Under the pieces are notes generated by a model. The model was not told where the DNA came from. It did no database searches and worked only from the letters and a program-made list of their open reading frames with translations. A stretch of DNA of 64,000 nucleotides from Geoglobus acetivorans (GTDB taxonomy: Archaea > Halobacteriota > Archaeoglobi > Archaeoglobales > Archaeoglobaceae). Where the stretch lies: positions 806,001 to 870,000 of the forward strand of contig NZ_CP009552.1 of NCBI RefSeq assembly GCF_000789255.1, in the 5' to 3' direction. Both the position numbers and the translations under genes were made by a program. Every line of letters begins with the position of its first letter. Within the stretch, counting starts at the first letter, position 1. Shown in pieces: positions 11,029-40,480 of the stretch.

Positions 11029-11043
11029 ACGCCGGGGCTGGGA
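11029..11043. repeat. left attachment site (attL) of the integrated element
   Basis: ACGCCGGGGCTGGGA, an exact 15-bp copy in the same orientation of the sequence at 40397-40411, which is the last 13 bases of the tRNA-Ser gene plus two flanking bases. Sequence on both sides differs. Nearly identical position logic to archaeal tRNA-targeted integrations, where one end keeps a truncated tRNA tail. Confidence 0.8.
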
Positions 11044-20478: not shown

Positions 20479-20609
20479 TGCCGCGGTGCCACAGCTTCAC
20501 CGTCTGGAGCCCGTTCAAGTGCAGGCTCAGGAGGCCGCAGAGGTGCAGGCACTTCGACGCTGCTGAGGGCGTCTGCTCCCGGCCATGGAGGAAGAGGGTG
20601 GTGGTCTGA
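20478..20609 (+). CDS. small Cys/Arg-rich protein
   Basis: 43 residues (MPRCHSFTVW...FKCRLRRPQRCRHF...CSR). Its ATG overlaps the previous stop by one base and its TGA abuts the next GTG. Four Cys and a His could form one zinc site; strongly basic. Short, so supported mainly by tight operon packing and composition. Confidence 0.45.
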   Translation: MPRCHSFTVWSPFKCRLRRPQRCRHFDAAEGVCSRPWRKRVVV

Positions 20610-23095: not shown

Positions 23096-23710
23096 ATGCT
23101 GAACAACCTTCAGCCCATCCTGATCGAGCCCCCGGACGACCCCAGGTACAGGAAGAGGGAGGGTAAAAGGCCGAGCCACAAGCGACCCTTCAGAATTCTC
23201 AGGCCGATTGAGTACGAGCTTCTCAAGCAGGGTGCCAGAAAGAAGGAGAACCAGCTCAACCTCGATGTCTTACTGCTCACAGGACTGAGATACGAGGAGG
23301 CACGCAGGCTCCAGCAAAATCCGGAGTGGTTCGACGGCAACTTCATCAGGATCCCGGAGATGAAGGTGACCAGGCAGAGAAGGCAGAGGCAGAGGTGGGT
23401 CAGGCTCAGCCTGATAGGCAAAACCATCCTGCCGTTCTTCTTCGACAGCAGACCTCTGCCCGATCCCCACGTCTGGAAGGAGAACCTGGTCAGGTGGGCT
23501 GAGAGGGCAAACCTCGACCCTTCAGGGCTCGGGGCGAAGACCACTCGAAAAACATGGGAGAGCTGGCTGGTGTTCTGCTACCCACACAGGCAGATCGAGA
23601 TAATCCAGAGCCAGGGGCACGGCCTGCTGACGGCCATAGAGCACTACATCAACATGCCGTTCACCGAGGACGACAGGAGAATGATGGAAAAATATTTGCA
23701 TGGGTGGTGA
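23096..23710 (+). CDS. short tyrosine recombinase (second integrase)
   Basis: 204 residues, catalytic domain only. Catalytic set visible: R65 in LLTGLRYEEAR, K148-x-x-R151 in KTTRKTWESW, H175 in SQGHGLLTA and nucleophile Y184 in IEHYINMPF. It lacks the N-terminal arm-binding domain of the other integrase, and differs in sequence. Likely roles: inversion or resolution of the element, monomerisation, or integration in another host. It has its own promoter, shared in sequence with the structural operon. Confidence 0.82.
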   Translation: MLNNLQPILIEPPDDPRYRKREGKRPSHKRPFRILRPIEYELLKQGARKKENQLNLDVLLLTGLRYEEARRLQQNPEWFDGNFIRIPEMKVTRQRRQRQRWVRLSLIGKTILPFFFDSRPLPDPHVWKENLVRWAERANLDPSGLGAKTTRKTWESWLVFCYPHRQIEIIQSQGHGLLTAIEHYINMPFTEDDRRMMEKYLHGW

Positions 23711-24175: not shown

Positions 24176-24183
24176 GCCAGTTC

Positions 24184-24215
24184 ACACCCCCCACCTTTTC
24201 AAGGCTTAAATACCT
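24184..24215 (+). promoter_or_regulatory. shared promoter/operator motif, copy 2 (before the virion block)
   Basis: ACACCCCCCACCTTTTCAAG followed by GCTTAAATACCT, aligning without gaps to 23044-23075. The CTTAAATA box would start a transcript near 24232, giving a leader of about 140 bases before the TTG at 24374. Confidence 0.6.
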
Positions 24216-24247: not shown

Positions 24248-24359
24248 AAAGCCGGGGAAGCGAGACCATGTTGGCCAGCGAAGACGGGTTGCCTGGCGTA
24301 AACTGTTTTGGCGTCTGTGGCCACCCTGGACTACCGCTGTTCTCCGAACCCCCGGCTTT
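24248..24359 (+). promoter_or_regulatory. structured leader RNA of the structural operon
   Basis: AAAGCCGGGG (24248-24257) and CCCCGGCTTT (24350-24359) form a perfect 10-bp closing stem around about 92 bases that contain further helices, for example GCCAG/CTGGC and AGACG/CGTCT. The GGAGGTGG ribosome site follows at 24362-24369. The first seven paired bases (GCCGGGG/CCCCGGC) equal the acceptor stem of the tRNA-Ser where the element is integrated, but D and T arms are not recognisable. Possible switch, packaging signal or tRNA mimic. Confidence 0.5.
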
Positions 24360-24373
24360 CGGGAGGTGGTCGG

Positions 24374-25057
24374 TTGGATAGGGAAAAGGGTAACGGATTC
24401 CGGGAGACTCTGCCGGGCTGGCTTCTCCTCGCACTGATGGTCTCGTCCGTGATCACTCCTGTCGCCGCGGAGGATCAGGGATTCTTCGGCAGGCTCAAGC
24501 TGGCCTTCGACTACCTGAAGGACCCGGGCCTGCTCGTCAGCTACATCAAGAACGAGTTCATCAACCCGCTGCTCAAGAAGGACCCGTACAGCAGGTACAA
24601 GAAGATCAGCACTTCAGGCTCCGGCTCCACCTCAGCCGAGCCACCCTACATGAAGGATGTCAGGGAGAGGCTTAACGGCTACTTTGCCAAAATCGATGGC
24701 TACACCCTCTCTGAGAGCCAGCTGAAGACAATTAAGGACTCGGGCGTGAGGGACGTCACGCTCGCGGTCATGGACAGCAAGCGGACCTACTACGTCAAGC
24801 ACGTCTACGTCTCCGGCTCGACGGTCAAGGTGGACGGTAAAGCCACCAGGAACATGGTCTCCATCACACCCAAGGCAGCCCACGAGCTGGTCCTCATGCT
24901 GGACAGCTACCTCGAAGACGGCAGCCTCAGCAGCGCCGAGCTCAAGAGCCTCGGCAACTGGGGCCTGCAGAAGTACAGGAGCGGGGACATCTCCGGCAAG
25001 AAGTCCCACATCGAGGCGGTTCTGAACTTCCTGCTTTCCGGAGGTGGTGAGGGTTGA
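24374..25057 (+). CDS. secreted protein, first gene of virion-like block
   Basis: 227 residues from a TTG start with GGAGGTGG eight bases before; longer starts would not give a proper signal peptide. Signal peptide GWLLLALMVSSVITPVAA, then a mature domain with a Ser/Gly linker (STSGSGSTSAEPP) and an alpha/beta part. No second TM helix. It overlaps the next gene by four bases and its end codons contain that gene's ribosome site. A structural or envelope protein is inferred from context. Confidence 0.65.
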   Translation: MDREKGNGFRETLPGWLLLALMVSSVITPVAAEDQGFFGRLKLAFDYLKDPGLLVSYIKNEFINPLLKKDPYSRYKKISTSGSGSTSAEPPYMKDVRERLNGYFAKIDGYTLSESQLKTIKDSGVRDVTLAVMDSKRTYYVKHVYVSGSTVKVDGKATRNMVSITPKAAHELVLMLDSYLEDGSLSSAELKSLGNWGLQKYRSGDISGKKSHIEAVLNFLLSGGGEG

Positions 25058-37415: not shown

Positions 37416-37766
37416 ATGGTCGTGGCAGTAAGCGAGGGTGAGCTGAAGCTCATCATACACGCGGTCCGCGACGTCCTTGGGGATGTGAGGAGGGAGCGGA
37501 GGGGGAGAGGTAGAAAGCCACATGACCCCGTGCTGCTCACGGCCCTGACCTACATGATGATCCGCAACGGGTGGAGCCTGAGGCAGGCGGAGAGGTGGTG
37601 CAGGGAGAACATGGAATTGCTGAGGCGGTTCGGTTACGACAAGGCCAACCCGCCGAGCTACGTGGCGTTCAAGCGCACGCTCGACTCCATGGATCCGAAG
37701 ATGATACAGAGGATTTCAGCTAAAATCAAGTACTTGAAGGGGGAAGTGAGGACATTGTGGTTTTAG
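37416..37766 (+). CDS. transposase N-terminal domain fragment
   Basis: 116 residues with PHDPVLLTALTYMMIRNGWS and SLRQAERWCRENMELLRRFG, as in the N-terminal DNA-binding part of IS4/IS5/IS1182-type transposases, but no DDE catalytic domain follows. Either a truncated insertion-sequence relic or a domain kept as a DNA-binding protein. No terminal inverted repeats were seen. Confidence 0.55.
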   Translation: MVVAVSEGELKLIIHAVRDVLGDVRRERRGRGRKPHDPVLLTALTYMMIRNGWSLRQAERWCRENMELLRRFGYDKANPPSYVAFKRTLDSMDPKMIQRISAKIKYLKGEVRTLWF

Positions 37767-40396: not shown

Positions 40397-40411
40397 ACGC
40401 CGGGGCTGGGA
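40397..40411. repeat. right attachment site (attR) inside the tRNA-Ser 3' end
   Basis: Same 15 bases as 11029-11043, same orientation. Thirteen of them are the 3' end of the tRNA-Ser gene (minus strand), so integration kept the tRNA intact. Confidence 0.8.
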
Positions 40412-40480
40412 CTTGAACCCAGGAGCCCGAAGCGGGCACCGGCTCTCAAGGCCGGCGCAGTGCCTCTCTGCAACCCCGGC
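40399..40480 (-). tRNA. tRNA-Ser (anticodon UGA)
   Basis: 82 bases. Seven-base acceptor GCCGGGG/CCCCGGC; anticodon loop CTTGAGA with TGA between stems GCCGG/CCGG(T); a long variable arm GCCCG-CTTC-GGGC-like, as in class II serine tRNAs; T-loop GTTCAAGTC. No intron and no encoded CCA. The 3' end is the integration target. Confidence 0.95.

Follow-up and report, generated by a model that had tools for sequence, protein, structure and literature searches.

In a Geoglobus-type archaeon (Archaeoglobaceae), a 112-nt leader precedes the structural operon of an integrated element of the pAMT11/TKV1 type. This leader probably constitutes the 5' untranslated leader of the operon mRNA and acts there as a mobile RNA switch that controls, in cis, how the structural genes are translated. 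The cis position and the conserved structure are well supported, and two-state switching over the Shine-Dalgarno (SD) sequence is predicted from computed folds. The leader was analyzed within a 64,000-nt stretch of DNA (hereafter, the window; positions 806001-870000 of contig C1 in a 1,860,815-bp genome, G000; other genomes are likewise denoted by G numbers). The relevant features of the window are as follows.

11029-40480: integrated pAMT11/TKV1-like element of about 29 kb, bounded by a 15-bp att copy and tRNA-Ser
11029-11043, minus strand: 15-bp att copy of the tRNA-Ser 3' end
23096-23710, plus strand: tyrosine-recombinase-like gene upstream of the leader, with a homologue likewise upstream in G013 and G003
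24181-24202, plus strand: motif TTCACACCCCCCA..TTTTCAA, directly 5' of the TATA box, present also in G013, G009, and G014 (direct reading)
24206-24214, plus strand: TATA box, TTAAATACC
24248-24257, plus strand: segment 1, 5' strand of the closing stem, AAAGCCGGGG, conserved and covarying in relatives
24260-24291, plus strand: conserved core of about 32 nt, GCGAGACCATGTTGGCCAGCGAAGACGGGTTG, putative sensing domain
24292-24297, plus strand: segment 2, CCTGGC, predicted competitor for segment 1
24340-24346, plus strand: segment 2b, TTCTCCG, second predicted competitor for segment 1 in the window (CGGGGAA/TTCTCCG)
24350-24359, plus strand: segment 3, 3' strand of the closing stem, CCCCGGCTTT, alternatively able to pair with the SD
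24361-24369, plus strand: segment 4, SD, GGGAGGTGG (direct reading)
24374-25057, plus strand: gene A, TTG start, exported protein of 227 aa
25054-37037, plus strand: remaining operon (LamG protein, subtilase, membrane proteins, ATPase), a pAMT11/TKV1-like module
40398-40480, minus strand: tRNA-Ser, which begins GCCGGGG and ends CCCCGGCG

The initial annotation of this locus described a perfectly paired 10-bp stem closing a structured leader between a promoter and the ribosome site of the first virion gene. Direct reading of segments 1 and 3 recovered exactly this stem (10 of 10 perfect pairs), and the 112-nt RNA has a minimum free energy of -49.6 kcal/mol (z = -3.16), a stability that none of 200 dinucleotide shuffles matched. 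The placement was also correct, with the TATA box upstream and the SD and the TTG start (24374) downstream, the core of segment 3 ending 17 nt 5' of the start codon; calling the downstream gene a virion gene was not substantiated, as gene A has no Pfam match. Transcription would start about 25 nt 3' of the TATA box, roughly 10-20 nt before the stem. As in riboswitches, the 5' untranslated region contains a conserved, structured element, with transcription of the leader inferred from the promoter. The core contains a direct repeat of GCGAnGACnnnGUUG; its single-base length changes between copies show that it is non-coding. Comparison with Rfam 15 yielded no family above the gathering score for the leader, and the permissive matches were trivial. 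The motif at 24181-24202 is a possible operator. Two promoter-upstream motifs, TTCACACCCCCCA and GGGGACAAAGTTAC, are each common to different element types (the window and loci L069, L067, L072, and L267), and these motifs 5' of TATA boxes might be operators.

Searching all 55 Archaeoglobaceae genomes at the DNA and protein levels and with covariance models identified 12 copies of the leader in 11 of them (the window, G036, two in G038, G035, G015, G013, G014, G009, G026, G003, and G007). Ten copies are complete; that of G009 is cut by a contig end and that of G026 is a 5' remnant. The first model, R1, built from an initial alignment that included fragments, was set aside; model R3, which covers the core part, detected the additional copy in G007 (E = 2.7e-4), which was absent from its training set. 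The geometry is fixed in all complete copies: the TATA box precedes segment 1 by 34-45 nt, and from the end of the segment 3 core it is about 16-27 nt to a TTG start, with an SD between the leader and the start. The copy in G014 has a diverged core, and the frame downstream of it looks decayed, so that this copy may be a relic. At L071 (6537-6784, in G026), the 5' remnant is fused to a transposase fragment resembling window positions 37416-37766, beside tRNA-Cys, apparently an internal deletion of a similar element. Beyond the Archaeoglobaceae, nothing above chance was found in a 394-genome sample of the phylum; matches in haloarchaea and others at E-values of 0.003-0.05 were rejected as chance level for that number of genomes. 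Pattern and protein scans of IMG/VR gave no match or chance matches only, and in the contig pattern scan, among the matches listed, one was real (Archaeoglobus GB_MAG3_049) and the others look like bacterial chance matches. Sequence comparison thus gives good support to a family of RNA leaders on mobile elements of the Archaeoglobaceae that are conserved and structured and lie in cis.

The covariance search across related elements that the initial annotation had proposed was borne out: relatives keep the stem through compensatory changes, and the contrary outcome was not observed. The closing stem is AAAGCCGGGG/CCCCGGCUUU in the window, AGG../..UUU in G036 and G038, AGG../..UCU in G015, CGGGCCGGGG/CCCCGGCCCG in G007, and CGGGUCGGGG/CCUCGGCCCG in G003, and 96.3% of the cells are paired across eight distinct rows. 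In two of the stem pairs, both partners change, and another pair runs A-U, G-U, G-C; the compensatory pair types are A-U, G-U, G-C, and C-G. The covariation score of the stem (0.300, against 0.178 +/- 0.037 in shuffles, 1 of 500 of which reach it) drops when the stem is slid, and comes from an 8-row test with hand-picked arms, which leans towards pairing. Because of this selection, and because the seven core pairs hardly vary so that the covariation rests on three outer pairs, the score is support rather than proof. For the six closest leaders alone, covariation was no better than in shuffled alignments, and the test is uninformative. An RNA helix at the closing stem is moderately supported by these comparisons.

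The stem is one of several pairings open to its strands. All complete copies offer segment 1 a competitor; the sequences concerned are CCCGGC, CCTGGC (window), CCCTGGT (G013 and G009), CCCCGGC (G014), and GCTATCCCCG and GCTACCCCG (G003 and G007); segment 2b is kept as TTCTCYG in most of the pAMT11-like relatives. In most pAMT11-like copies, the SD is a possible partner of segment 3, a pairing that is weak in G038a, G013, and G014. Among 200 shuffles per leader, none matched the set of mutually exclusive helices 1:2, 1:3, and 3:4 for G036, G038b, G035, and G015; one did so for G038a, seven for the window, and 21 for G013, and in G014 the scan detected no such set. For the window, G036, G038b, and G035, the SD-hidden and SD-free ensembles are computed to lie within about 1-4 kcal/mol of each other at 37 C. 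From 37 to 80 C, the computed balance shifts towards the SD-free ensemble in G035, G038b, G015, and the window (80 C energies are extrapolated), the SD-free state of the window being favored by about 5 kcal/mol at 80 C, likewise by extrapolation. At 37 C, the 1:3 helix of the window is more stable than 1:2 by about 10 kcal/mol, and bistability there would therefore depend on segment 2b; the two best folds are at -54.6 and -54.1 kcal/mol, and the nearest alternative uses this TTCTCCG segment (24340-24346).

Under the proposed mechanism, pairing of segment 1 with segment 3 would leave the SD free, and translation could start; when segment 1 is held by a competitor, segment 3 would be released and fold over the SD, reducing translation. 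The core would sense a signal (a small molecule, a protein, or temperature) that biases the choice of partner by segment 1. A riboswitch or RNA thermometer, both listed among the options of the initial annotation, is possible, given mutually exclusive pairings of similar computed energy in several copies.

The element in the window encodes a tyrosine integrase and a Cdc6-like protein, and belongs with pAMT11/TKV1 by its shared structural module and conserved gene order. Against pAMT11, its ATPase is 42% and its subtilase 58% identical, and LamG, C, H, J, and M proteins are also shared. Gene A follows the leader in the window, G036, G038 (contig C41), G035, and G015. An AlphaFold model of its product (4 sequences) has an overall pLDDT of 58.7 and is poor over the first 86 residues; in this low-confidence model, the C-terminal domain bears a weak resemblance to SCP2-like lipid carriers (Foldseek match to UbiJ-SCP2, E = 4e-4). 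The leader precedes a different set of exported (surface) proteins in G013, G003, and G007. The window integrase has homologues in G013 (49%) and G003 (65%), the Cdc6 protein has one in G003 (53%), and the recombinase-like gene has one in both of these elements; the shared integrase and Cdc6 therefore indicate one chassis with alternative structural modules behind the same leader. On another contig of G038 (C9), a leader at the end of a single MAG contig precedes a thalassapleovirus VP3 homologue that is 75% identical to VP3 of ApPV1. Judged by these gene neighborhoods, the leader family precedes at least two, and probably three, kinds of structural module.

Several observations concern the carriers themselves. 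Loci L239, L278, L244, and L276 (G003 and G013) combine a window-type integrase (plus Cdc6 in G003) with another module (GH97-like, PPC, subtilase). L065 (G030) carries part of the module, with genes C, G, F, and E in a changed order; neither gene A nor a leader was found there. The window element is distinct from GacPV1, the published provirus of the same species; GacPV1 as the carrier was rejected, the region having no megablast match in the phage collection, which includes GacPV1.

The seven-base core of the stem invites a tRNA origin, either as a tRNA mimic or as an att-derived copy of the target tRNA. The initial annotation had equated the stem with the acceptor of the tRNA-Ser at the integration site, and the identity (GCCGGGG) is real in the window; the G035 element, too, resides in a tRNA-Ser with a GCCGGGG acceptor. 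As a link to the target tRNA, however, the match fails: the G015 element uses tRNA-Gly as its integration site (acceptor GCGGTCG, att repeat >40 bp) and retains GCCGGGG/CCCCGGC, which refutes the general rule and makes the match to the tRNA-Ser acceptor coincidental. The outer stem pairs also differ in G003 and G007, and the leader matches no tRNA model, neither ARAGORN nor Rfam detecting a tRNA-like fold. We give this explanation next to no credence, and the tRNA mimic suggested by the initial annotation is discounted with it. A DNA-level element (an origin, packaging, or recombination site) would account for the strong inverted repeat, but several copies contain G-U pairs, workable in RNA and mismatches in a DNA hairpin, and the strand and spacing are fixed relative to the TATA box, the SD, and the start. 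Such an element is thus very improbable, and the fixed TATA box-SD placement together with the G-U pairs likewise disfavors the packaging signal of the initial annotation.

Among explanations at the RNA level, a constitutive leader, in which the 10-bp stem is always formed, protects the mRNA 5' end, and keeps the SD exposed at about 80 C with no switching, agrees with the closing stem being the covarying helix and with the closed stem giving the most stable 80 C fold of the window, G013, and G014. It leaves unexplained a 32-nt core conserved beyond the needs of a protective stem and the retention of a partner competing for segment 1 in all complete copies, and G038b, G038a, and G015 favor the competitor fold at both 37 and 80 C; we consider it rather unlikely. 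U6 to U7 tracts within the leaders of G013, G009, G003, and G007 raise the alternative of a transcription attenuator, which would terminate transcription at these tracts unless the RNA refolds. The window and the other pAMT11-like leaders contain no U-tract of 5 or more, however, and attenuation in place of translational switching is an unlikely explanation of the leader; in the leaders with internal U-tracts, the output of the switch may be transcription termination instead. A leader responsive to a protein would be the same switch with its trigger named: an RNA-binding protein of the element or the host, such as L7Ae, would bind the core and alter the fold. The direct repeat in the core and the published L7Ae precedent in the same archaeal family (PMC6298567) are in its favor, but a scan of 11 leaders with the k-turn consensus found none in a conserved position; within the core, a k-turn is shared only by the two G038 copies. 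A protein trigger is conceivable, though less likely than not.

Few RNA switches in archaea have experimental support. A limited literature search, together with Rfam, revealed no RNA switch described before the structural genes of an archaeal virus or plasmid. In Archaeoglobus fulgidus, L7Ae regulates its own mRNA via a k-turn in the leader (PMC6298567); like the leader described here, the L7Ae leaders are archaeal 5' leaders studied in the same family, and their fold hides or frees the SD, as is predicted for the present leader, whereas the present leader is long, has a long-range stem, precedes structural operons of mobile elements, and lacks a conserved k-turn. Archaeal riboswitch examples include crcB/fluoride and preQ1-like candidates (PMC4247193, PMC3124441). 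Like translational riboswitches, the leader has a conserved core, and mutually exclusive helices involving the SD are predicted for it, but it has no Rfam match, and its gene context is virus-like rather than metabolic.

pAMT11 has the ATPase (42% identical), the subtilase, and the LamG and membrane proteins in common with the window element but lacks a leader of the present family, and no gene A homologue was found in it. In pAMT11 (L073, ~20515-20534 to 1), a self-complementary SD, CCCTCCGGAGGG, immediately precedes the GTG with which the first gene of the module starts and could form a simpler SD-hiding hairpin. The Thalassapleoviridae (PMC10919331) are connected to the family through their structural gene VP3, which has a homologue behind one leader copy. 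Model searches found no leader in GahPV1 or in the first 10 kb of GacPV1, and inspection found none upstream of VP3 in ApPV1, AvPV1, and ThalV2. The window element has no megablast match to any phage record that would place it in the Thalassapleoviridae, and no VP4-like family matched among the window proteins scanned.

More speculatively, the leaders may represent a class of ligand-responsive switches that was born on archaeal mobile elements, moves as a promoter-plus-leader cassette, and licenses unrelated virus-like structural modules via one common Archaeoglobaceae signal. What makes the proposed RNA switch of broader interest is that a single leader family stands before at least two, and probably three, different structural modules, one of them with a gene homologous to that of a known virion protein. 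If the switch is confirmed, the leader would provide a defined sequence for tracing the signal, and archaeal viruses and virus-like plasmids would share a portable RNA device that times particle building.
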